Below are positions 20,978-52,068 of a DNA stretch of 57,054 nucleotides, piece by piece. Source of the DNA: an uncultured Sphingomonas sp. (GTDB taxonomy: Bacteria; Pseudomonadota; Alphaproteobacteria; Sphingomonadales; Sphingomonadaceae); contig NZ_CADCWA010000120.1 of NCBI RefSeq assembly GCF_902806285.1, positions 1-57,054 of the forward strand, given 5' to 3'. The notes beneath the pieces were generated by a model that saw only the letters and a list, made by a program, of their open reading frames with translations, ran no database searches and was not told the origin of the DNA. Made by a program: the position numbers and the translations under genes. The first letter of the stretch is position 1, and each line of letters begins with the position of its first letter.

Positions 20978-22363
20978 ATGAGCACCCGCCCCGGACCGCA
21001 GAGCTATTACGACATCCTCGGCATTTCGCCCTCGGCGTCGCCCGAGGCGGTCGAGCAGGCCTATCGCGCGCGCATTCGCGAGGTGCGCGACCTGCCCGGC
21101 GGGGGCGACCGGACGCATCAGTTGACCATCGCCTACCGGGCATTGAAGGGGGCCGAGAAGCGCCGGAACTACGATGCCGCACTTGGCGGGACACCGCCGG
21201 CGAGAGCCGTACCCAAGTCCGCGTTCCTTGGCGCGGGCGCCGCCGCGGCGGCAACGCTGGCGCCGCGTCCGGCAGCAGGAGCGGCCGGGGGGGCCGCAAC
21301 GACACCAGAGATGGCGCCGCGGGCCCCCGCCGAGAGCCCTCCCGCCGCAGCGAGCGACGTTTCACCCGCGCCCGAGCCGCTCCGGCCCGAGCCCGAGCCG
21401 ATCGTCCAGGAGTCCGCGCCGGTCGAGGCGGCCGTTCCCCTGCATGAGCAGGCGCCGGTGCGCGAGGAGCCTGTCTCCTTCCGCGAGGAGCCTGCTCCCG
21501 CTGCGTACGAACACCATTCCGATCGCGAGCAAGCGTGGGCGGAGTCCGAGCCGGAGTATCTCGAGCCAGTCGAGCATGAGCCGCGGGAGCGGCGCCGAAC
21601 CGGTCTTTATGCGCTTGCCGCCCTAATCGGGGTGGGCCTGCTCGCCATGCTCCTGCTGGTCGGGCGGAATAACGGACCCGCCCCGGAGCAGGCGCCGACG
21701 GCACAGGCGGACGCCGGCAGTGCGCTGCCGGACGGCGGCACCGGCACGCAATCCTCGGCGACAGGCGAACTGGCATCCGCCGCACCGCAGGAGGAAGGCG
21801 GCCTGCTGTCGGAGATCCTCGGCACGCTCGACCCTACGGAGCAAGCTCCGTCCCCTGCCGCGCCCGCATCGCCGACACCGCAAGCCCAGGAGGAGGTCGG
21901 GCCGGGGACAGAAGCGGCCGAGGGCGGCACGACCGAAGAGCAGGTGGAGGTGGCTGAAGCGAGCGAGGAGGCACCCCCGGCCGAAGCGCCCCAGGAGGCC
22001 CGGACCGAGACGGCAGTCGCCAGCCCGCCTCCGCCGCCGCCGGCCGCCGCTACCCGGCCCGCGCCGCGCGTCAGCCGCGCTTCCGCCGCGCGCTATCTCG
22101 GCGGCGGCCTGGTGGATGCCGACAATGCCGGAGGCCGCTTCGCCGGCTCCGTTGGCGTGCGCTTCACCGTGCTGCCCAACGGCCGTACGGCCAGCTGCCG
22201 GGTTACCCGGTCGAGCGGCAACCCGGCGCTCGATTCGACGACCTGCAACCTGCTGCAGCAGCGGCTGCGCTTCACCCCGGCAACCGACGACGAAGGCCGC
22301 CCGGTGGTGAGCGAGATCGGGTCGGTCTATACTTGGGGCCGGACGCCGGGACGGTCGCGCTAG
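20978..22363 (+). CDS. Membrane protein with N-terminal J-like domain and C-terminal TonB domain
   Basis: A 461-residue protein with an unusual order. Residues ~8-68 look like a J domain (SYYDILGISPSASPEAVEQA, then YRALKGAEKRRNYDAAL), but the HPD tripeptide that stimulates Hsp70 is missing: the loop reads REVRDLPGGGD. Residues ~70-205 are Pro/Ala/Glu-rich. One membrane segment follows at ~209-229 (LYALAALIGVGLLAMLLLVG), then an acidic Pro/Ala-rich spacer, and residues ~370-458 match the TonB C-terminal domain (GSVGVRFTVLPNGRTASCRV, then SGNPALDSTTCNLLQQRLRF) with two cysteines. The J-like part would face the cytoplasm and the TonB part the periplasm. No exbB/exbD is nearby. Function is unknown. 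Confidence 0.85.
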   Translation: MSTRPGPQSYYDILGISPSASPEAVEQAYRARIREVRDLPGGGDRTHQLTIAYRALKGAEKRRNYDAALGGTPPARAVPKSAFLGAGAAAAATLAPRPAAGAAGGAATTPEMAPRAPAESPPAAASDVSPAPEPLRPEPEPIVQESAPVEAAVPLHEQAPVREEPVSFREEPAPAAYEHHSDREQAWAESEPEYLEPVEHEPRERRRTGLYALAALIGVGLLAMLLLVGRNNGPAPEQAPTAQADAGSALPDGGTGTQSSATGELASAAPQEEGGLLSEILGTLDPTEQAPSPAAPASPTPQAQEEVGPGTEAAEGGTTEEQVEVAEASEEAPPAEAPQEARTETAVASPPPPPPAAATRPAPRVSRASAARYLGGGLVDADNAGGRFAGSVGVRFTVLPNGRTASCRVTRSSGNPALDSTTCNLLQQRLRFTPATDDEGRPVVSEIGSVYTWGRTPGRSR

Positions 22364-22391
22364 GCTTTCCGATCCTCCGCGGGTCAGCGAT

Positions 22392-22626
22392 TGTGGAGTT
22401 CGGCGATGCCGTGTTCCCCTGGCTCCCGAGGCGAACGTCGAGGAGCTATTGGCCGAGCTGCTGGAAGACCAGGACCGGCTGCAGACGGCCGGTCACCGCA
22501 ACGTCGTCGAAAGCCTCAAGCGGCACGATTGGTCGCACCGCTGGGAGCAGATCCTCTCCCATGCCGGACTAGGAGGCTCCGCTGCGCTTCACGATCGCCA
22601 GGGTGCGCTGCGCCAATTGGCGGAAC
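22392..22626 (+). pseudogene. C-terminal fragment of a glycosyltransferase
   Basis: Only the tail of a gene remains. After EFGDAVFPWLP a frameshift leads to EANVEELLAELLEDQDRLQT, then AGHRNVVESLKRHDWSHRWE and QILSHAGLGGSAALHDRQGA. This lines up with the C-terminus of the intact glycosyltransferase at 29056-30246 (FDWEDALIDIPAVPEDMGAI, LRRASTANAVQSLRRHDWAH, RWDEILKTLGLGRSALLEER). The N-terminal ~300 residues are missing and the frame is broken, so it is not functional. It lies directly after the J-like/TonB gene and runs into another gene fragment. Confidence 0.8.
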
Positions 22627-23242
22627 TTCCATACCGGTGGATGTAGTCGACGCGGAGGGCTGGGCGATCAGCATCGCCGGCGAGCAAGGGCCCGCACTTG
22701 TCGTCCGCAGCCTCGTCAACTCCGCGGGCCTTGCCGCGACGCAGGTCGCGTCGATGGTCGGAGGCTTGGGCGCGGAGCACGCCCCGGAGCCGGTCTATGC
22801 CCGCGGCTGCTATTTCTCCTACGCCCGCCCGGCCGACCCCCTTCCGGCACCTGATCTACCCGGTGCCGGTGCCTGGAGGGCTGAGTACGCATCTGACCCT
22901 CGACCTGGCCGGCCGCGGCCCGTTCGGGCCGAACGTCTAATGGCTGGAGGAACGGCATCCCGACCGGCTCGACTAGCGGTGTGCCAGTCGCTTCATCCCG
23001 AGTTCCTGGCGGCGGCCAGGCGCATCTGGGAGGGGGTCGAGGCGGACGCGCTGCAGCCGGACTACGCCGGGATCGGCCCCAAGGTCCGGACGGCCTCGGG
23101 GATCGCTGAGGACTTTCTCCTGTCGGGTCCTGCCGCCCCTGGCTTGCCTGGTCTGGTCAATCTGTTCGGGATCGAGTCGCCGGGTCTCACCGCCTCGCTT
23201 GCCCTAGGAGACGAGGTCGCGGAGATGGTCGCTGCCGACTAA
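22627..23242 (+). pseudogene. C-terminal part of an LhgO-like FAD oxidoreductase, frameshifted
   Basis: The segment translates, in alternating frames, as the C-terminal half of an L-2-hydroxyglutarate oxidase-like FAD enzyme. The first frame gives [20 protein letters not shown] and [14 protein letters not shown]. After a frameshift near 22845 it gives [33 protein letters not shown] and a stop at 22938. Back in the first frame come ALQPDYAGIGPKV and GLVNLFGIESPGLTASLALG. The N-terminal FAD-binding part is absent. At least two frameshifts and one internal stop make it a decayed gene. Its end overlaps the stop of the convergent epimerase gene by four bases. Confidence 0.82.
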
Positions 23243-23805
23243 AGCGGGGCGGGGAAGTCGAAGAAGTCGGGCTCGTCCGTCTCCAGCAATGGCCAGGACG
23301 CATCCTTGGGCGAGATGGTCGTCACGGGGAGCGGCCATTCTATCCCCAGTCGCGGATCGTTCCAGCGGAGCCCGCGCTCGGCATCGGGCGCATAGGCGGC
23401 CGTCACCAGGTAGGTGACTTCGCAATCGTCGACCAGCGTCTGGAAGGAGTGGGCGAAGCCCTCCGGCACGTAGAGCATGCGGTTGTTGGTCGCGCTAAGC
23501 TCGAACTTGCCGTGCTGCATGAAGGTCGGCGATCCGCGGCGGATGTCCACGATCACGTCGACGATCGCCCCGCGGATGCAGCGCACGAACTTGGCTTCGG
23601 TATGGGGCCGAAGCTGGAAGTGCATGCCACGCAGCGTGCCTGCCTGCGCGGAAACGGAGGTGTTCTGCTGCACGAAGTCGGCCTTCAGGCCATGCTCCTC
23701 GAACAGCGCGCGGTCCATGGTGCGGGCAAAGGAGCCGCGCTCGTCTCCGCGCACCACCGCCTCGACCAGGGTCGCGTCGGCAAGCGCGGTCTTGTGGAAG
23801 ATCAT
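23239..23805 (-). CDS. RfbC-type dTDP/CDP-sugar 3,5-epimerase
   Basis: A 188-residue member of the dTDP-4-dehydrorhamnose 3,5-epimerase family, a cupin that epimerises 4-keto-6-deoxy-sugar nucleotides. Active-site context is intact: DERGSFARTMDRALFEEHGL, FVQQNTSVSAQAGTLRGMHF with the catalytic His, KFVRCIRGAIVDVIVDIRRG, and MLYVPEGFAHSFQTLVDDCE followed by TYLVTAAYAPDAERGLRWND. With rfbF and rfbG nearby the substrate is probably CDP-4-keto-6-deoxyglucose rather than a dTDP sugar; this is an inference. The start overlaps the stop of a truncated oxidoreductase fragment (ATGA), the same arrangement as in the second, broken copy at 25869-26063. Confidence 0.88.
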   Translation of the reverse strand: MIFHKTALADATLVEAVVRGDERGSFARTMDRALFEEHGLKADFVQQNTSVSAQAGTLRGMHFQLRPHTEAKFVRCIRGAIVDVIVDIRRGSPTFMQHGKFELSATNNRMLYVPEGFAHSFQTLVDDCEVTYLVTAAYAPDAERGLRWNDPRLGIEWPLPVTTISPKDASWPLLETDEPDFFDFPAPL

Positions 23806-24232
23806 GCGTAGGCCTTCCGGGTCCGGGCGGCAGGCTGGGTACCGAACACCGCTTCCTGTTCCTGGTACAGCCGGTCGACCACCCGGCCAGCCGGAGCCTG
23901 CACATCGTCGAAGGTCAGCGGCTGGTCCTTGCCGACCGCCCGCGTGAGGGTGCAGCCCAGGCCGATGCCGATCGGCAGCAGCCGCTCGGCGCGGATCGCA
24001 TCCAGATTCTCGGCAAGGCCATAGACTTCGAAACTGCCGAATTCCTCGATCATGTCGCCGGGCTTCAAGTCCTTCTTGGCCACCGCGATCACGCCAACCG
24101 ACGGCTCGCGCGGCGCAAGCACGGCATCGCCGAACAGCACCGCGCGGGCGACCGAACTGGGCACCTCGAAATGGCACAGGTGATAGGGGGTACTGAACAC
24201 GTAGTGGGGCCCCTCGCCGACTTCTATGGAGA
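23802..24232 (-). pseudogene. Tail fragment of a SAF-domain sugar oxidoreductase
   Basis: About 140 codons match the C-terminus of the intact oxidoreductase at 26060-27409: GEGPHYVFSTPYHLCHFEVP, ARAVLFGDAVLAPREPSVGV, IEEFGSFEVYGLAENLDAIR and DQPLTFDDVQAPAGRVVDRL correspond closely to the paralogue. The N-terminal Rossmann domain (about 300 residues) is gone; similarity ends abruptly at the GEGP motif near 24227. The open frame continues to a TTG at 24269 through unrelated sequence. It may still be translated and so drive coupled translation of the epimerase gene whose start it overlaps, but it cannot be a working dehydrogenase. Confidence 0.85.
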
Positions 24233-24284
24233 ACCTGGGTGCGGTGGCTGACCGGGGCTTCGGGTGCAATACTTATCCTGGGCG

Positions 24285-24750
24285 CGCTCTCGTCCTAGCA
24301 TATCATCAGACTGACGCAGGGCCTTCACTTTGGCGCCTCGCCACTATCGACGTGATATCGCGAACAGTTGGCACGTCGCTGGCCGTTGCAACCGCCTATC
24401 TAACCGGAAGTCACGGGGCTGTCTTGCTCCTGACCTTCGGAACCACGGCTTCGACATGCCTGCTCGTCTGGCTGCTAAGTGACTGGCGTCCGGGGCGGGG
24501 CGGGCCGCTCCGCTTCGCCAAGTCCAGGACCTGCTGGTTTTTGGCGCAAACATGACGGTCTGCAATCTCGCGACATATCGGGGATAGAATCCAGTCAGAG
24601 TTGTCATCGGACGCGTGCTCGTCGTGGTGCCCGTAGGCCTCTATGAGCGGGCCTGTAAAGTCGTGCTCTTGCCCATCTTGTTCGGGCACATGCCTTTGTC
24701 CCGGGTGCTAGTGCCGATGCTCAGCCAGAGCCGACAAAATCCCCGAACGC
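24285..24750 (+). pseudogene. Remnant of a WzxC-like polysaccharide flippase
   Basis: On the forward strand, opposite to its neighbours, pieces of a membrane flippase can be read. First comes LAYHQTDAGPSLWRLATIDV, then ISRTVGTSLAVATAYLTGSH, LLVWLLSDWRPGRGG. After a frameshift near 24520 come VFGANMTVCNLATYRG, an in-frame stop, GLYERACKVVLLPILFGHMP and LSRVLVPMLSQSRQNP. The order and spacing match the central part of WzxC-type lipopolysaccharide exporters (the FGAN...N-x-IGR...GLY-RAY-LLLLP...PLS-V--P-LSR pattern). Both ends are missing. Non-functional. Confidence 0.72.
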
Positions 24751-24752
24751 TA

Positions 24753-25832
24753 TCAAACTCTGCTACGATAATCGGCGATCTGTTCGAGGCTGACATCTCG
24801 TGCATCGCGACCGGCGTCGACCTCGGTATGCCATGCGACCACCTTGGTCAGGGCTTCCTTCAGCCGCAACCTTGGCTGCCATCCGAGTTCCGCGCGCGCC
24901 TTGCTGATGTCCAGGCGCAGGAGCACGGCCTCATGCGGCTGAGGGTCCTCCGAACTTCGCCAGCCGAGGTTCGAGTCCCAATTCGCTAGCATCTCATCAA
25001 CAATCCAGGCGACCGGCTGCGTGTCCTCATCGGCCGGACCGAAGTTCCAGGCGGTGGCGATCTCCCGCGAGCCCGACAGCAGACGTTCGGCGATCATTAG
25101 ATACCCGCCGAGTGCTTCGAGCACATGCTGCCACGGACGGATCGACCGGGGGTTTCGGATCAGCGGTGCTTCTCCCTTCAGCAGGGAGCGAACGATGTCT
25201 GGGATCAGCCGGTCAAGCGCCCAATCGCCGCCGCCAATAACATTGCCCGCGCGCACGGAGGCGATTGCCGGACCGGTGGGATAGGAACGGCGGTAGGCCG
25301 AAATGACGAGTTCGGCTGCACCCTTGCTACTGCTGTAGGGGTCATATCCGCCCATCGGTTCGTTTTCCCGATATGGCCAGACCCACTCGCGATTCTCATA
25401 GCATTTATCGGTGGTGACGCAGATCACGGCTTCAACGCTCGGCTGGTGCCGACATGCCTCGAGCACGTGCACCGTGCCCATGACATTGGTGGCGTAGGTC
25501 TCGACCGGATTGTCGTAGGAATAACGGACCAGCGGTTGTGCCGCGAGGTGAAAGACGACCTGCGGCTGGAAGTCGCGGACCGCTCGTTCCACGCATCGCT
25601 GGTCGCGGATGTCGCCTTCGACATGATCGACAAGGTCGCGAAGCCGCGTTTGCTCGAAGAAGTTGGGATCAGTCGGCGGCGGCAGCGAGAGACCGCCAAC
25701 GATGGCACCAAGCTGGTGCAGCCATAACGACAGCCAACCGCCCTTGAAGCCGGTGTGGCCGGTCACCAGCACCCGCCGGCCGGCCCAGCCGAACTCGCTC
25801 ACCAGCACTTCCAAGGCGCGCTCGCCTTCCAT
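24753..25832 (-). CDS. rfbG: CDP-glucose 4,6-dehydratase
   Basis: A 359-residue NAD-dependent extended SDR that converts CDP-glucose to CDP-4-keto-6-deoxyglucose. It shows the specific RfbG Rossmann motif VTGHTGFKGGWLSLWLHQLG, then AAQPLVRYSYDNPVETYATN, VCVTTDKCYENREW-type sequence (VICVTTDKCYENREWVWPY), the Y-x3-K pair in YDPYSSSKGAAELV, NVIGGGDWALDRLIPDIVRS and RPWQHVLEALGGYL. Intact and of usual length. It lies downstream of rfbF and the SAF oxidoreductase on the same strand, with the broken epimerase copy in between. Confidence 0.95.
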   Translation of the reverse strand: MEGERALEVLVSEFGWAGRRVLVTGHTGFKGGWLSLWLHQLGAIVGGLSLPPPTDPNFFEQTRLRDLVDHVEGDIRDQRCVERAVRDFQPQVVFHLAAQPLVRYSYDNPVETYATNVMGTVHVLEACRHQPSVEAVICVTTDKCYENREWVWPYRENEPMGGYDPYSSSKGAAELVISAYRRSYPTGPAIASVRAGNVIGGGDWALDRLIPDIVRSLLKGEAPLIRNPRSIRPWQHVLEALGGYLMIAERLLSGSREIATAWNFGPADEDTQPVAWIVDEMLANWDSNLGWRSSEDPQPHEAVLLRLDISKARAELGWQPRLRLKEALTKVVAWHTEVDAGRDARDVSLEQIADYRSRV

Positions 25833-25868
25833 TGCTCTTCGAGATATGATTTGTCACGAAGGGTGCGG

Positions 25869-26063
25869 CTAGCCAGCGGCCTGAAACATCGACACATCTT
25901 TCCTCCAGTCCGCCGCTTGCGACTCAGTTGAGGTATATTCGATCAAGCCGTGCTGCTCGATTTCGCTGCGACACATCGTGCGTGCGAATGTACCGCGCTC
26001 GTCGTTGAGGATAACGGGCTTGACCAGAAACACATCGACCAGGCTGGTTTTCTCGAAGATCAC
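25869..26063 (-). pseudogene. Head fragment of an RfbC-type epimerase
   Basis: Residues 1-40 (MIFEKTSLVDVFLVKPVILN, then DERGTFARTMCRSEIEQHGL) align with the start of the intact epimerase at 23239-23805 (MIFHKTALADATLVEAVVRG, DERGSFARTMDRALFEEHGL). Directly after that the sequence becomes unrelated (YTSTESQAADWRKDVSM) and stops, so about 145 residues including the catalytic His are missing. The start overlaps the stop of the complete SAF oxidoreductase by four bases. The break lies near 25945. Confidence 0.88.
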
Positions 26064-27409
26064 GCTTGCGCCTCGCTGAGGCCAGTCGAAGTAGCCTCTT
26101 GGTTCCCGAACAGAGCTTCTTGTTCATCATAGAGTCGATCGACCAGCCGGCCCGCAGGGCGGCTGACGTCGTCGAAAGTGAGCGGCTGGTCTTTGGCAAT
26201 CGGCCGCTTGACGGTCGAGCCCAGTGCGAGGCCGATCGGCAGCAGCCGTTCGGAGCGGATCGCGTCGATGTTGTCGGCCACGCCATAGACTTCGAAGCCC
26301 CCGAACTCCTTGATCATGGTGCCCGGCGCCAGATCCTGCTTCGCGATCGCCAAAACCCCAACGGTTGGCCCGCCTTTGGGCGCCAGAACGGCGTCCCGGA
26401 ACAATACCGCCCGAGCGACCGAAAAAGGCACTTCGAAGTGGCACAGGTGATAAGGGGTGGTGAAGACGTAAAACGGGCCCTCGCCCATCTTGTAGTAGTT
26501 CAGATAGTGCTGTTGCCGCGGGTCGTTGGTGGTGCCGATGACGAATACGCCCGGTCCTGGACGTGCGCCGACGACATAGTCGACCAGCCCGGGACCGTCT
26601 GGGTCCAGATGGTCGGCGAAGGAACCGATGCACTGCTCCACGGGGACAAGCGGGGCGCCGGGATCCCCGCCGGAGAAGTCGGGTCCGAGCATTCCCTGCC
26701 GGGCCACCCGGAATCCATTGCCATTCGCCACGATCGCTTGCTCGAACGAAATCTTCGTCCCGTCGGCGAAGGAGGCGACCATTGCCGCGTTCTGCCCCCA
26801 CTTCGCGGCAAAACCGGCCTGCGTCTGGGGATTGCGGTAGGGGTCGTGCAGACCCTTGATGTTCCCGGCCAGCAGTGGCCTTACGCCAAGGCCCCGGACG
26901 AAGCGCAGCAGGTTCATCTCGACGCCAGGCTGGTCGCCATCGGAAAAGGTGAAGATCACGCCAGCCTCATCCGCGTAATGCTTGAGGATAGGTCCGATCG
27001 TTCCGTCGAGTTCGGCGTTCATCTGGATGACATGCTTGCCGTTTTCGATGGCCGCGAGGACGCATCCGGCGGCATAATCGAGGGTTCCGGTAACCTCGAT
27101 GATGGCTTCCAGTTCGGGCGCGCGCGCGAGCAAGTCGGCGTCGTCGGTAACCGCGTAAGCGCCGTCGGCGATGGCCGCTTGGAGCCCCGCGGCATTGTCC
27201 ACCCGGCGGGCGCTTACCCCGGCCTGCGTATAGCAAGCCACCGCGCGCTCGATCGTCCGATTGGCGATCGCGCACAACTGGATACCCGGCACGGATTTGA
27301 TGATCTGGAGCGCGATGCCGCTGGCCTGAAACCCTGCGCCGATCATCCCGACCCGGATCGGTCGCCCTTGCGCTCGCCTTTGTTCGAGCGCCGTATCGAT
27401 GATGATCAT
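26060..27409 (-). CDS. NAD(P)-dependent oxidoreductase with C-terminal SAF domain
   Basis: A 449-residue protein with an N-terminal Rossmann domain of the homoserine-dehydrogenase-like type (PIRVGMIGAGFQASGIALQI, AIIEVTGTLDYAAGCVLAAI, HVIQMNAELDGTIGPILKHY, FTFSDGDQPGVEMNLLRFV) and a C-terminal SAF domain at about 350-440 (VLAIAKQDLAPGTMIKEFGG, FEVYGVADNIDAI, ERLLPIGLALGSTVKRPIAK). Relatives occur in sugar-nucleotide clusters; the reaction is not established to my knowledge. Context suggests reduction or rearrangement of a CDP-keto-sugar. I start at MIIIDTALEQRR rather than the longer frame, which would overlap rfbF. A tail fragment of a second copy lies at 23802-24232. Confidence 0.85.
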   Translation of the reverse strand: MIIIDTALEQRRAQGRPIRVGMIGAGFQASGIALQIIKSVPGIQLCAIANRTIERAVACYTQAGVSARRVDNAAGLQAAIADGAYAVTDDADLLARAPELEAIIEVTGTLDYAAGCVLAAIENGKHVIQMNAELDGTIGPILKHYADEAGVIFTFSDGDQPGVEMNLLRFVRGLGVRPLLAGNIKGLHDPYRNPQTQAGFAAKWGQNAAMVASFADGTKISFEQAIVANGNGFRVARQGMLGPDFSGGDPGAPLVPVEQCIGSFADHLDPDGPGLVDYVVGARPGPGVFVIGTTNDPRQQHYLNYYKMGEGPFYVFTTPYHLCHFEVPFSVARAVLFRDAVLAPKGGPTVGVLAIAKQDLAPGTMIKEFGGFEVYGVADNIDAIRSERLLPIGLALGSTVKRPIAKDQPLTFDDVSRPAGRLVDRLYDEQEALFGNQEATSTGLSEAQA

Positions 27410-27431: not shown

Positions 27432-28223
27432 TCAAGCCCACACCTTCCAGGCCTGCTGATTGGCCCAAGTGGCCTCCAGGACCTCCTTGTCGCGCAACGA
27501 GTCCATGTTCTGCCAGTAGCCGTCGTGGCGGAAACTTCCGAGCTTTCGTTGCTCAATCAGACGCGCCATGGGCTCGTCCTCCCAAACGGTGGCGTCTCCG
27601 TCGATCAGGCTGAACACTTCAGGCTCGCAGACAAAGAAACCACCGTTGATCAACCCGCCATCGGTTCTGCCTTTCTCACGGAAGCCTTCAACCTCGCCGC
27701 TGTCGTGGTCGAGATGGAGCGAGCCGAAGCGACCGGGTTGGGTCACTGCGGTTAACGTGCACCAATGCCCGGTCCTGCGATGGGACTCGAGGAGGTGATC
27801 GATCCGGACATCGCTGACGCCATCGCCGTAGGTCAGGAAGAACGTACCGTCTTCCAGGAGACGCTGGGCGCGCTTGAGACGCCCGCCGGTCATGGTGTCC
27901 TTGCCGGTATCCAAGACCGACACGCGCCAGGGTTCACCGGTTTGGGAGTGGTATTCCACGGCGCCATCGCACAGGTCAATGGTGAAGTCGGAAGTGCGTC
28001 CACGGAAATTCAGGAAATAGTCGCGAATGAACTCCACCCGATAACCGCCGATCACCACGAACTCGCGGCAACCATAATGAGCGTAGATCTTCATGATGTG
28101 CCACAGCATGGGCATACCGCCGATCTCCACCATGGGCTTGGGACGAACAGCGGTTTCCTCGCTGAGCCGAGTGCCGAAGCCGCCCGCCAGGATCGCCACT
28201 TTTGGCACCTTACCCTTGATCAT
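27432..28223 (-). CDS. rfbF: Glucose-1-phosphate cytidylyltransferase
   Basis: A 263-residue RfbF, which makes CDP-glucose from CTP and glucose 1-phosphate. The nucleotide loop is VAILAGGFGTRLSEETAVRP, followed by KPMVEIGGMPMLWHIMKIYA, GCREFVVIGGYRVEFIRDYF, LTYGDGVSDVRIDHLL and the C-terminal DGYWQNMDSLRDKEVLEATW. The start at MIKGKVPK has an AGAGGAC site at the right distance; a longer frame begins at 28265 but has no obvious binding site. It is the first gene of the rfbF, SAF oxidoreductase, epimerase remnant, rfbG series on the reverse strand. Confidence 0.95.
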   Translation of the reverse strand: MIKGKVPKVAILAGGFGTRLSEETAVRPKPMVEIGGMPMLWHIMKIYAHYGCREFVVIGGYRVEFIRDYFLNFRGRTSDFTIDLCDGAVEYHSQTGEPWRVSVLDTGKDTMTGGRLKRAQRLLEDGTFFLTYGDGVSDVRIDHLLESHRRTGHWCTLTAVTQPGRFGSLHLDHDSGEVEGFREKGRTDGGLINGGFFVCEPEVFSLIDGDATVWEDEPMARLIEQRKLGSFRHDGYWQNMDSLRDKEVLEATWANQQAWKVWA

Positions 28224-29055
28224 CACTAAGTCCTCTTCGGGTCTTGCCTGCGCCAATTGAGTCAATGTGTTTCCGCATCAATCCGGGCTGACGGCCCTCT
28301 CGCCGGCAGCACTCGGTTCAGCGGAAGACCAAAGGTCCGATCAAAGCTTTCCAACTCATTAAGAAACGTCCAAAGGGTCCATCGTGATTAAAAGAAAGCG
28401 GCTGGTCGCATTCAAGTCGGTGCCGTTACCATCCGCGCGATGGACGTTCATCGCCACATGCACCAGGCCCATGTCCGAGGCGAAGACGACTATAGCCATC
28501 CGGTGCGCGACCGTTGCCGTCGCCTCCCGCCCTGCTCGGAGCAATACGCGGGAACCCCCGCGAAGTTCAACGACCGAGGACGGACGACATGCAACACTGA
28601 AGAACTCATAGTGTAGTGCGTTAGCATCGTTCACGTTTTTGAGGCAAGATGTGCATAGCGTTTCGACGTGTCCTTTCACGGGCGCTCCACTGCTTTCCCG
28701 GGCGCTCCACAGGGCCCGCACCCCGGTAGGGAGCGAGCCCCGATCTTCCGCCGTCTGCCGCACTTTGTCTCCCTTCAGAGGCTACTCTCCCCCTACAAGT
28801 AGCAATGCGAGATACATTCAACCCGCACCCTACCATCTGCACGGGCCGTTGCGGGAGTGGCTTGCCGCACAACCGCGAGGAAGCTAGCGCCGTCGTCGTG
28901 CACTCACCGTCCTACAAGCTCAGCAAGTTCGTAGCCGATGCAGGCTGATGCGCTGGTCACAACGGCAGGGAGGCGAGCGGCTCGGGTAGTTTTGAAGATC
29001 CCTGTTCAACAGATATCTCTGTTGGCAGACAAATGTCTGGAGTAAGAACAGATCA
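28224..29055. other. Gene-poor stretch between divergent rfbF and a glycosyltransferase
   Basis: No convincing gene is seen in these 0.8 kb. It must hold the promoters of both flanking genes. It contains a tandem pair of CGGGCGCTCCAC units at 28679-28690 and 28699-28710, and a set of palindromes close to the glycosyltransferase start (listed separately). Base composition looks less GC-rich than the housekeeping part of the window, with several short frames and no family match that I recognise. Confidence 0.6.
29002..29039. promoter_or_regulatory. Cluster of three palindromes upstream of the glycosyltransferase
   Basis: Three small palindromes overlap or adjoin within 40 bases: CTGTTCAACAG, AACAGATATCTCTGTT and CAGACAAATGTCTG. 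They end 16 bases before the start codon, where GGAG occurs. Such a cluster could be an operator or an mRNA hairpin that covers the leader. No known regulator site is recognised. Confidence 0.4.
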
Positions 29056-30246
29056 ATGTCGGATCGATCGGTTCTTGTTGCGTCGAACTACTACCCAGGG
29101 GTCGCCCAGGGACAAACCTATGCTTTCTCGGAGGTAATCCGCTCCGTCGAGGGCGCCGACGTTCTGGCACCGACTGCGCCTTCCTTTAAGCAAGGCTGGG
29201 CGCTGCGGCCGACGATGGAGTACCTGCTACTGGAAACCTTTCATCGGTCGACGTCGGTTCTGCGCAACAAGGCCGGACTGAAGCGTCTGCCGACGATGCA
29301 GCCGATCCAGCTCGAAAAGGACTACGACCTCTTCTTCTTCATGTGTCAGTTCCCGCTCGACCTTCCCGCCCTGGACCGGATCCACGGCTGGCGCGAGCGT
29401 TCCGGAAAGGCTGTCGCATTCCTCACGGAGACCTGGTCGCATTACCTGCCAACGACCAAACCCGAACTGAAGCTGCTCGACAAGTTCGACCACGTGTTCC
29501 TGCTCAACGCTGCCAGCATCCCCAACGTCGCCAAATACACCAGCACGCCCTGCTCCTTTCTGGCCACCGCCGCCGACTGCCTTCTGTCAACGCCGTTCCC
29601 GAACCCTCCGGAGCGCACGGTGGACGTCTATAGCATGGGGCGTCGTTCGACGGCCGCCCACCAGCAGCTCCTCGGGCTGGCACGGGCCGATCCCTCGTTC
29701 TTCTATGTCTACGACACAATCAAACATGGGATCGCGACGGATCTGGCGGAGAGCCGATTGCTTGGTGCCGCCTACATCAAGCGCTGCAAGTTCTTCATGG
29801 CCTACAACCATCACGCAGTGGATCTGCAAAGCGGGCACCAGAAGGACTTCGGGGAGCGCGTCTTGGCGACGCGCTACTTCGAGGGTGCGGCCGGGGGCGC
29901 CGTCATGCTCGGATCCCCGGTCGACGCTCCGGAGTTCCGTCGTTTCTTCGACTGGGAAGATGCGCTGATCGACATTCCGGCTGTTCCCGAGGACATGGGC
30001 GCGATCTTGGCCGACCTGAACGCCCAACCTGAGCGTCTGCGGCGGGCCAGCACCGCCAATGCGGTGCAGTCGCTGCGCCGGCACGATTGGGCGCACCGCT
30101 GGGACGAGATCCTGAAGACCCTCGGGCTCGGCCGGTCGGCCTTGCTGGAGGAACGGCTGCACCGGCTCGAAGCCCTCGCAGGCGCGGCGGAAGCTGAGGC
30201 GGTCGCCAACGGCGTGCTCAAGCATGAACTTCCCCGGCCGCAGTGA
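29056..30246 (+). CDS. Glycosyltransferase (CgeB-like, GT family 1 type C-terminus)
   Basis: A 396-residue soluble protein that reads as a glycosyltransferase of the CgeB/Glyco_trans_1_2 kind. It starts VLVASNYYPGVAQGQTYAFS; the middle has LPALDRIHGWRERSGKAVAF and DVYSMGRRSTAAHQQLLGLA. The C-terminal donor-binding region contains FGERVLATRYFEGAAGGAVM and LGSPVDAPEFRRFFDWEDAL, a typical E-x-x-A-G-G-x-x-L-type motif, and ends with RRHDWAHRWDEILKTLGL. The acceptor and donor are unknown; the CDP-sugar genes next door make a CDP-linked donor plausible. A tail fragment of a paralogue is at 22392-22626. Confidence 0.8.
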   Translation: MSDRSVLVASNYYPGVAQGQTYAFSEVIRSVEGADVLAPTAPSFKQGWALRPTMEYLLLETFHRSTSVLRNKAGLKRLPTMQPIQLEKDYDLFFFMCQFPLDLPALDRIHGWRERSGKAVAFLTETWSHYLPTTKPELKLLDKFDHVFLLNAASIPNVAKYTSTPCSFLATAADCLLSTPFPNPPERTVDVYSMGRRSTAAHQQLLGLARADPSFFYVYDTIKHGIATDLAESRLLGAAYIKRCKFFMAYNHHAVDLQSGHQKDFGERVLATRYFEGAAGGAVMLGSPVDAPEFRRFFDWEDALIDIPAVPEDMGAILADLNAQPERLRRASTANAVQSLRRHDWAHRWDEILKTLGLGRSALLEERLHRLEALAGAAEAEAVANGVLKHELPRPQ

Positions 30247-31697
30247 GATCGAACCTGATGGTCTGCCGGGGCGGCGGTGACCTTTAACGTGCAAGCACAA
30301 TCCGTCCTGCAAGGTTCGAGGCTGTAACGGGGGCCTGACCCGAAGGCCGGCAGGACGGCGGGGATGGCGCCACCATGACGTCGGCCGGTCGAGCCTTTGC
30401 AGTCCATCGCGGAGGACCGTGGACAACGTCCGCTTGAGCAGCGCTCGCGAGCGCTGCCGCGCTCATCGTCTTGCCCGGATCCGGCGACCAAGACTGGCGC
30501 GTGTGCTAGTCTGAGGCTGGCCGCGCAAAGGGCTGAAGGATCTGGCGCGCCCGGACTGACAATGATGGGCACTCAGATCATTGGACAATTTCCGTACAGC
30601 TAAGAAGCTGACGGCTGCCTTGCGCTCATTGAAGACATTCAACGTTCCCTGCCTGATGATCGTAAGTGGACCTGAGTAAAGCAGCTCGGCTGAGCCCTTA
30701 ATCAAGTCATGGTCAGGTTGCCCGCGACTGAATCAGCAGGGCGCCGGCCCGGCCTGTCTCAACTGTGTGGCCACCGCTCCGGTGCAATGCGAGCCGAGCC
30801 GACCCGATCGGCTCAACCCGACTTGATCGAGCTAAGCTGATGATGGTTGACCGGTGAACCCTTGAGAGCGCTACTGAGGCAATCGTCGTTCCAGCTCGGT
30901 CAGCGACATCCGCACAAGATGGGCACGAGAGTCATTCATTGTGACCTCGGCATAGTCATGCGCTCCCCCTAACAAGAACGTGTGCCCAACTGCGCTGGAA
31001 CAAGTTCGTCGCCACTGCGGGTCAGGTACCGTTCGACCGGCGCGTTCGGCGAGACGAGTTGGACAGGCATGTTGCCCAACCCTCCTCGGGGCGTAGGTGA
31101 TTGCGGCAACCGGGGCATAAAGCGCTAAGCCTTCAAAGGCTGCAGGACGAGCGCAATTCAACGAAATGGCCAAGCACAGAGGCTCCCAGGTCAGTCTCGG
31201 GACCTATTCGGCTTCAGCGTCCAAGGCGCACTGACGGGACGTTCTTCATTGTTAAGCCGAAGATCTGGCCGAGAATGGCTGTTATGGCCCGCAAGCGGAC
31301 GAGACGCTCCCGGGAGTCGCCCGCGGGAAAGCGAACATACGGGCGGGGCATCTCTGATCGAGAAGCGTGGGCAATGCCATGGTGGTCGGGGGCAGGACCG
31401 TGGCGCTGTCCACGCGCTGGTTAGCTCGGCGACTGGATCGGACACCCACGAGAGATGGCCGTAGCCAAGTCGAACTACAAGGCAATGAACATACCACTTG
31501 GTGCGCCGCGGGTCGACGTTCGCACCTATGCCGAGACGACCTGCCTTCTCTGCCAGCTGCAATCTAGCACTACCTGCCTCAAGCAAGCCATGTCACGCAT
31601 GGGCGGCCCGAGATGATGCGGCGGGTAGCGGACAGAACCGTCGTTACGCCGTTGCATGAAGCAGTGAGCCGATGCGTGCACGCGCGATATTGAGCGT
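30247..31697. other. 1.45-kb gene-poor region
   Basis: I see no supportable gene on either strand. Frames are short, overlap in all phases and match no family I know. Short direct and inverted words occur (for example GGCTCAACCCGACTTGATCG near 30810) but no terminal inverted repeats or transposase pieces. Lower GC than the housekeeping part and lack of codon bias suggest decayed accessory DNA between the sugar island and the hydrolase/receptor locus. Confidence 0.55.
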
Positions 31698-31739
31698 TTG
31701 ACACTGTAGTTATTGTAAACTTAGTGTCCTGATCAGGAC
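31698..31739 (+). promoter_or_regulatory. Candidate promoter and 14-bp perfect palindrome before the M19 gene
   Basis: TTGACA at 31698-31703 is a consensus -35 box, with AT-rich sequence (GTAGTTATTGTAAACTTA) after it where a -10 box would lie. The perfect palindrome GTCCTGATCAGGAC at 31726-31739 follows, and a wider inverted pair GACACT...AGTGTC spans 31700-31728. AAGGGGAT just after it can serve as ribosome binding site for the start at 31754. The palindrome sits where a repressor would block transcription. Confidence 0.5.
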
Positions 31740-31753
31740 AAGGGGATCGCAAA

Positions 31754-51136: not shown

Positions 51137-52021
51137 GTGCGCTCGATCCTGAGCAAGTTCGACGAGTACCAGAGTGCCGAGAACGCTAAGCATGTGCGGC
51201 GATCCATGCTTGCCAATGCCAAGCAGGGCTTCTGGAACGGGTCACGGCCGCCGCTTGGCTACAGTGTCGTCGTTGCCGAACGGCGTGGCGACAAGGACAA
51301 GAAGGTCCTGGTGATCGACGAGACCGAGGCGCCCCTCGTGCGGCGGCGCCTTGACCATCAGACCGGCAAGTCGGGTCAACACCGTTACTATGCCTGCTCA
51401 CGTCGGGCGACTCGCGGCGAGACTGCCTGCACAGGCCGATTAATCCGGATGGAGAAGCTCGATCGTTCGGTGCTCGATGAGCTTGAGAACCGCATCGTTG
51501 CGCCTGAACGGCTTCCTGACCTCCTCGCAGCCTTTCTCGAGAAAACCGACGAGTCGGACAATCGCCGCCGTGAGGAGCTAACGCTGCTTCGCTCGGCCAA
51601 GACCAACAGCACCGGCGCGCTGAACCGGCTGTTTGAGCTTGTCGAGCGGGGCCTTGCGGCTCCATCCGACCGAGACTTCGCTGAGCGGCTGACCTATCAT
51701 CGCCAGAGGATTGCAGCACTCACCAGCGACATCACCGCTCTCCAGAAGCAACTCACGTCCAGTCAACGCAGGATTACGCCTGATGTCGTGGAGAAGTTCG
51801 GAAGCCTGCTGAGAGAGGGCCTTCGCGGGGACAATCCTGCCTTGCGCCAAGCGTACGTCCGACTTCTGATCGACGAGGTGATCGTCGGAGCGGAGCAGGT
51901 CCACATCCGTGGCTCGCGCAAGGCACTGGAAAGCGCCGTGCTGGCGACCTCGGCTCGCCCCGGTGCCGGAGTGCCCAGCTTTGCACGGGAATGGCGCACC
52001 CGACAGGATTCGAACCTGTGA
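51137..52021 (+). pseudogene. Large serine recombinase, gutted remnant
   Basis: The frame encodes parts of a large serine recombinase but lacks the N-terminal resolvase catalytic domain with the active Ser. It begins in the recombinase linker region (LSKFDEYQSAENAKHVRRSM, LANAKQGFWNGSRPPLGYSV). A further deletion of about 130-150 residues lies after EAPLVRR, where the sequence jumps to SGQHRYYACSRRATRGETAC in the zinc ribbon. The remaining coiled coil and C-terminal part are typical ([49 protein letters not shown]). The last codons (WRTRQDSNL) are read from the 3' end of the tRNA-Arg gene. Not functional as recombinase. Confidence 0.85.
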
Positions 52022-52068
52022 CCTACGCCTTCGGAGGGCGTCACTCTATCCAGCTGAGCTACGGGTGC
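51992..52068 (-). tRNA. tRNA-Arg (anticodon CCG)
   Basis: A 77-base cloverleaf on the reverse strand. The acceptor stem GCACCCG pairs with CGGGTGC, followed by discriminator G and an encoded CCA. D arm GCTCAGCTGGATAGAGT; anticodon arm ACGCC-CTCCGAA-GGCGT with anticodon CCG, which reads CGG; T arm ACAGG-TTCGAAT-CCTGT. The 3' half overlaps the C-terminus of the serine recombinase remnant on the other strand, suggesting that the tRNA 3' end was an integration site. Confidence 0.97.

Follow-up and report, generated by a model that had tools for sequence, protein, structure and literature searches.

Probable overwriting of a resident CDP-sugar locus by incoming alleles in an uncultured Sphingomonas

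The window analyzed here is a stretch of 57,054 nucleotides from an uncultured Sphingomonas sp. (assembly GCF_902806285.1, contig NZ_CADCWA010000120.1, positions 1-57,054, forward strand). It contains a polysaccharide locus with two incomplete copies, A and B, of one gene pair, encoding an oxidoreductase with a SAF domain and an RmlC-type epimerase. The locus probably represents a resident cytidine diphosphate (CDP)-sugar locus that was overwritten by incoming alleles, leaving one full-length copy of each gene, and these genes probably act as one pathway. Neighboring segments have different nearest relatives, as judged from the oxidoreductase-tail tree, an rfbF tail and rfbG, and at least three sources come together within about 4 kb.

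The resident locus would have comprised a DnaJ/TonB gene, a glycosyltransferase and an FAD oxidoreductase and, on the other strand, the epimerase, the oxidoreductase, rfbF and a short-chain dehydrogenase/reductase (SDR). Incoming polysaccharide DNA would have overwritten it from the right, bringing an rfbF-oxidoreductase-epimerase allele of its own that was fused to an rfbG taken from an rfbF-rfbG-rfbH operon and to a scrap of a flippase gene. Through illegitimate joins, rfbF, oxidoreductase, epimerase and glycosyltransferase would each now exist as a truncated duplicate beside one full-length copy. The make-up of the locus, the separate ancestries of the two copies, the synteny of the resident part and the second rfbF tail are observed directly; we infer the direction, number and order of the transfers, as well as expression and product.

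Ancestry of the two copies

Copy A holds a full oxidoreductase and an epimerase head of about 40 codons, and copy B an oxidoreductase tail of 140 codons and a full epimerase, so that the complementary truncation described in an earlier note on this DNA is real. The homology of the copies was also confirmed. A search of the window's own genome with the copy A protein retrieved copy B at E = 8.6e-64, a similarity far above what chance would give, the two are linked by a 208-nt (77%) and a 107-nt (79%) direct repeat, and the copy B tail matches residues 307-442 of copy A at 72% amino acid identity. The 40-residue epimerase head of copy A is 62% identical to the epimerase of locus L045 and 57% identical to that of copy B. 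The two halves lie 1.8 kb apart, with rfbG and a flippase remnant between them, as had been reported. The gene junction had been described as the same ATGA overlap in both copies, but it is ATGA in copy B and GTGA in copy A. A 21-codon rfbF tail, the glycosyltransferase and FAD-oxidoreductase remnants and the trimming of rfbG by about 10 codons had been overlooked.

Relatives were collected as 50 loci, fetched with copy A oxidoreductase peptides and reaching at most 8 kb on each side, which is a sample rather than the whole family. The possibility that the truncated pieces are independent conserved genes was rejected: in all 50 loci the match to the oxidoreductase starts at residue 1 and extends to residue 434 or beyond, although a scan seeded with six peptides could miss a lone tail.

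Copy B is what remains of a resident locus, which another genome of the genus, G008, still has undamaged next to the same DnaJ/TonB gene. L006, from the uncultured Sphingomonas isolate AVDCRST_MAG09, includes the G008 stretch (L003) letter for letter. In L006 the undamaged order is glycosyltransferase, FAD oxidoreductase, epimerase, oxidoreductase and rfbF. Positions 22035-24218 of the window are collinear with it at 80-81% DNA identity, except for two deletions. One, of about 1.1 kb, removed all but the final fifth of the glycosyltransferase, and the other, of about 0.5 kb, most of the 5' half of the FAD oxidoreductase; the match ends within the oxidoreductase. The stop codons of the FAD oxidoreductase and the epimerase share a convergent overlap of 4 bp, which is the same in the window and in L006. 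Further left, 5.0-21.8 kb is collinear, with small gaps, with contig C1 of G008, which ends within the DnaJ/TonB gene, the last part of that gene starting contig C55. Between 28.3 and 43.3 kb only short matches to G008 of at most 81 bp were found (40 of 194 candidates scored). A tree built from 52 oxidoreductase tails (150 columns) places copy B with L006 (support 100/98); a program warning for this tree concerned long branches elsewhere in it.

In the same tree, copy A groups with L045 (support 100/82), the locus of Sphingomonas sp. BN140010, which is contained in the G073 stretch and thus belongs to the same genus group as the window. Copies A and B are therefore not sisters. Of the two origins suggested in the earlier note, replacement by an incoming allele is supported by the tree and by the collinearity with L006, while duplication is not. 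The full-length oxidoreductase tree places copy A with L006 and L045 and leaves their branching order open. Copy A would best be called a separate sphingomonad allele, and it is perhaps itself a recombinant. Oxidoreductase matches at E <=1e-20 occur in three of 71 genus genomes (G000, G008 and G073), with one match each in G008 and G073. No close plasmid source was found among 62 plasmid records with a relative at E 1e-40, the best of which reached 63% in Paracoccus, and viral contigs gave no pattern match. In BN140010 (L045/G073 C1, 360-379 kb) about 10 kb separate the undamaged module from a DnaJ/TonB homologue, the relative orientation being opposite, and the two are therefore linked but rearranged.

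Origin of rfbG and the flippase scrap

The 21-codon rfbF tail shares 67-71% amino acid identity with the rfbF ends of G004, G030 and G064, and 48% with the complete rfbF of the window. In all three genomes rfbF overlaps rfbG as it does in the window, and rfbH comes next. These rfbF-rfbG-rfbH operons are presumably 3,6-dideoxyhexose operons. The rfbG of the window is 69-74% identical to theirs and still has the rfbF tail in front, but it stops at the flippase remnant and has no rfbH adjoining. The simplest reading is that rfbG was excised from such an operon, its own rfbF being cut to 21 codons and the rfbG end and rfbH being lost. A search for rfbH, confined to the window, gave no match (best E 0.10).

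The flippase scrap takes the place of rfbH and of the roughly 10 terminal codons of rfbG. The PF13440 match in 24513-24761 scores 35.9 bits against a cut-off of 23 and has one TAG inside; it is weak in two stop-free stretches of the remnant that lie in different frames. The loci searched gave no close match for the source of the scrap, the joined pieces reaching at best 24% at E 0.045. About 80 bp of no assigned origin separate the end of the copy A epimerase head (~25944) from the second rfbF tail (25864). In G030, an acetolactate-synthase-like enzyme scoring below its curated cut-off is encoded near rfbF-rfbG-rfbH (L088, 11150-12922), an arrangement that we take to be reminiscent of branched-sugar (yersiniose-type) pathways.

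Predicted enzyme activities and likely pathway

The rfbF and rfbG products score above the curated cut-offs TIGR02623 and TIGR02622 and are assigned as glucose-1-phosphate cytidylyltransferase and CDP-glucose 4,6-dehydratase, respectively. Epimerase B exceeds the RmlC equivalog cut-off TIGR01221 and may act on the CDP-ketosugar. The copy A oxidoreductase has DRL_cat and SAF domains, and its nearest solved chains are 3upl and 3upy (5.9e-67 to 3upl). We take 3upl to be the Brucella DRL enzyme, and its residue numbers fit those in PMC3847144. At the positions of Gly121, Thr229 and His250, the copy A protein carries Ala, Ile and Leu, respectively. According to PMC3847144, Gly121, Thr229 and His250 are residues of DXR-II, the His being found in all but four members. 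An assignment as a DXR-II isoprenoid enzyme was rejected, the protein differing at all three diagnostic residues. It shares the DRL_cat and SAF domains with the DXR-II/DLO oxidoreductases and, in contrast to DXR-II, has Ala, Ile and Leu as that paper describes for DLO. These three differences make it look like a member of the uncharacterized DLO1 group rather than DXR-II, and the Ile at 229 points there.

An RmlC-type epimerase gene adjoins the oxidoreductase (within 300 bp, on the same strand) in all 50 loci, and an rfbF of at least 45% identity lies within 3.5 kb on the same strand in 46. The oxidoreductase is likely to act on a CDP-ketosugar, by reduction or rearrangement. A limited literature search surfaced no paper tying SAF/DRL oxidoreductases to CDP-sugar clusters. 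The most likely output of the set would be a CDP-4-keto-6-deoxyhexose together with a product formed from it by reduction or rearrangement. In the proposed pathway, glucose-1-phosphate would be converted to CDP-glucose, then to CDP-4-keto-6-deoxyglucose and to a 3,5-epimerized ketosugar, which the oxidoreductase would reduce or reductively rearrange. The CDP-D-fucofuranose/CDP-6-deoxy-L-altrofuranose pathway of Campylobacter jejuni HS:41 likewise has a cytidylyltransferase, a 4,6-dehydratase and a 3,5-epimerase. According to PMC12369002, the sequence from CDP-glucose through the 4-keto sugar and its 3,5-epimer to a reduced product is established there, the epimerase governs which sugar results, and a C4 reductase acts last.

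SDR and rfbG as possible alternatives

SDR and rfbG were never found together among the 50 loci: SDR alone occurs in 33, rfbG alone in 12, and neither in five, one of which, L006, holds an SDR end. Because the pattern follows large clades, it reflects few events. Of the 31 tree loci in the clade to which the window's oxidoreductase belongs, 30 have SDR in the stretch, and the 31st is L006. The window's genome (87% complete) has no SDR match above 31% identity, and the window is the only case among the loci seen in which an oxidoreductase of the SDR-linked clade stands with rfbG. From the motifs read, a Thr-Asp pair, whose functional meaning is assumed here, is present in rfbG and absent from SDR; SDR may therefore not be a simple substitute for rfbG. 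A natural pathway conversion can be suggested tentatively, and is rather doubtful: an SDR version would have become an rfbG version assembled from three sources, the old epimerase being kept because it decides the sugar.

Retained genes and alternative explanations

One full-length copy each of rfbF, oxidoreductase and epimerase is present together with a nearly full-length rfbG, all without stops and on one strand. Their order on the minus strand is rfbF, oxidoreductase, rfbG, epimerase. Within the genome the oxidoreductase has matches only at this locus, and rfbF has a single other match, which is weak and partial (32%). The four genes are predicted to be co-transcribed and to have retained their function. 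The suggestion that redundant parts were deleted fits the locus, because rfbF shows the same pattern. That pattern does not prove selection: complementary truncation alone is weak evidence of it, since such truncation results geometrically whenever the 5' portion of one operon is fused to the 3' portion of a second. Epimerase B had been thought to depend for translation on the oxidoreductase tail or on a new start signal. A GGAAGG lies 7 bases before its ATG, inside the tail; the epimerase could therefore be translated from a signal of its own or through coupling to the tail, the latter not being its sole option.

Decay is unevenly distributed around copy B. The FAD-oxidoreductase remnant beside epimerase B carries three lesions (a 4-bp insertion, a nonsense codon and a 1-bp deletion), and the epimerase and oxidoreductase tail stay open over 990 bp, the gap pairs of the tail against L006 canceling out. 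Over the roughly 2.1 kb that these pieces and the flippase scrap make up, all five lesions (these three and the frame change and TAG of the scrap) fall in the dead half, which would have a chance of about 0.04 if they were random, by our own arithmetic on few events of uncertain age. Epimerase B has no lesion, and its ratio of nonsynonymous to synonymous differences (pN/pS) against L006 is 0.14 (95% bootstrap 0.09-0.22), compared with 0.25 (0.16-0.36) for the copy B oxidoreductase tail, most of the divergence behind these values probably predating the damage.

This last qualification is one of several points that weigh against an overwritten locus with a working pathway. Lineage-specific changes in copy B and L006 number 8 and 6 in the oxidoreductase tail and 4 and 5 in the epimerase, and these relative-rate counts neither set the headless tail apart from the epimerase nor show relaxed selection on it. 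The genome has another RmlC-type gene (C168, 49% to the epimerase). A single promoter-like site was predicted, on the minus strand at 31741-31712, 3.4 kb before rfbF, and one of three terminator-like sites lies on the minus strand inside rfbG (25259-25246); neither count exceeds the shuffled mean. Residues 1-306 of copy A are nearer to L006 (78% amino acid identity) than to L045 (73%), its tail being nearer to L045, and the window's rfbF leans to L006 in the rfbF tree (94/62), from which the program omitted two of 48 rows. GC content at third codon positions is 0.73-0.78 in the copy A genes and rfbG against 0.83-0.88 in copy B, which is weak support, as a value of 0.76 occurs for rfbG in a genus member as well. 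At the joins, neither Pfam, applied to part of the open reading frames, nor Rfam over 20-34 kb revealed a mobile element, although a mosaic polysaccharide cluster does not require one. Compared with the C. jejuni HS:41 pathway (PMC12369002), the fourth enzyme of the window is a DRL/SAF oxidoreductase of uncharacterized chemistry.

The same mosaic might be a dead cluster whose intact genes have not yet decayed and which makes no product. Many remnants lie nearby, the glycosyltransferase, FAD oxidoreductase and flippase are broken, no counterpart of the resident module's SDR turned up in the genome, rfbG lacks its C-terminal end, and the scan revealed no promoter near the genes. A dead cluster is nevertheless unlikely, given that rfbF, oxidoreductase and epimerase are complete and rfbG is almost so, all of them free of stops, that epimerase B has the low pN/pS given above, and that the lesions found are confined to flanking remnants, with the reading frame of epimerase and oxidoreductase tail left unbroken.

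The contig could also join pieces of different strains, and a fragmented source assembly (203 contigs, 86.9% complete, 3.7% contamination) and a hypervariable polysaccharide locus are circumstances that favor such an artefact. It would need several independent joins between unlike sequences in 4 kb, and, among the 40 of 125 candidates that were scored, no other contig repeats any part of 22.3-31.8 kb at a length above 83 nt. Together with the gene-specific decay of the pieces and the collinearity of the left flank with G008, this makes an artefact quite improbable. A tandem duplication within the genome, followed by reciprocal deletions, would explain why gene order and strand are alike in both copies, but it is contradicted by the tree, in which the copies have different sisters. 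The copies share only 72% amino acid identity, G008 and G073 have one match each, and the rfbF tail belongs with a third lineage, so that this origin is hardly credible. Overwriting of a resident locus by incoming alleles accordingly stays the preferred explanation.

Features of the locus and neighboring observations

Table 1. Genes and gene remnants of the locus, with positions in the window
Feature	Position	Strand	Evidence
DnaJ/TonB_C gene, intact, left flank of resident locus	20978-22363	+	Pfam; collinear with G008 C1 end and C55 start
Glycosyltransferase remnant, final fifth of resident gene	22416-22649	+	80% DNA identity to L006
FAD (DAO-type) oxidoreductase remnant, 3' half of resident gene	22656-23242	+	Pfam DAO; alignment to L006
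Copy B epimerase (RmlC family), intact, 188 aa	23239-23805	-	TIGR01221 above cut-off; 90% aa to L006
Copy B oxidoreductase tail, 140 codons, open frame	23802-24224	-	80% aa to L006, 72% to copy A
Flippase remnant, internal fragment, frame change and TAG	24238-24761	+	PF13440
rfbG, CDP-glucose 4,6-dehydratase, ~10 non-conserved C-terminal codons gone	24753-25832	-	TIGR02622, 477.9 bits; C-terminal alignment
Second-rfbF remnant, last 21 codons, overlaps rfbG start	25802-25864	-	aa identity to genus rfbF ends
Copy A epimerase head	25869-26063 (open reading frame)	-	Homology only over first ~40 codons, to ~25944
Copy A oxidoreductase, intact, 449 aa	26060-27409	-	Pfam DRL_cat and SAF; 3upl/3upy relatives
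rfbF, glucose-1-phosphate cytidylyltransferase, intact	27432-28265	-	TIGR02623, 351.7 bits against cut-off 300.25
Glycosyltransferase, intact, second of the family whose tail lies at 22416-22649	29056-30246	+	Pfam Glyco_trans_1_2; 46% aa to tail

On either side of the intact glycosyltransferase, 28270-29055 and 30247-31753 are low in GC (58-61%), have no stop-free stretch longer than 140 codons and gave no protein match at E 0.001 in the fetched loci; both are probably decayed DNA. A short non-coding repeat at 30543-30625 has counterparts elsewhere in the genome, on two other contigs (80% over 83 nt and 97% over 29 nt), and on one G008 contig (90% over 50 nt). Farther right, an open reading frame with a recombinase zinc ribbon runs into a tRNA-Arg, the only tRNA gene found in the window (51137-52068), which makes this a possible integration scar. 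The segment 52395-56225 encodes a WecG-type glycosyltransferase, a 449-aa protein without Pfam match and a flippase; it may represent the second half of the polysaccharide cluster, at present some 22 kb distant. The 449-aa protein is 32% identical to the products of genes near SDR in G073 and G008.

Relation to known mosaic clusters

Hybrid O-antigen clusters are described for Salmonella in PMC3715488, e.g., group D2, which derives from D1 and E and in which an H-repeat remnant marks the join. The window resembles D2 in that halves from different clusters and gene remnants make up a remade surface-sugar cluster, and differs in that no mobile element was seen at its joins and at least three sources come together within about 4 kb. 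The locus is thus a well-resolved and unusually detailed example of the known mosaicism of polysaccharide clusters.

A subset of the DLO1-like oxidoreductases would be tied to CDP-sugar synthesis by these findings, which gives them a testable substrate. The replacement of a surface-sugar operon, probably with a complete enzyme set kept, can here be traced join by join, with an undamaged locus of the same genus for comparison.

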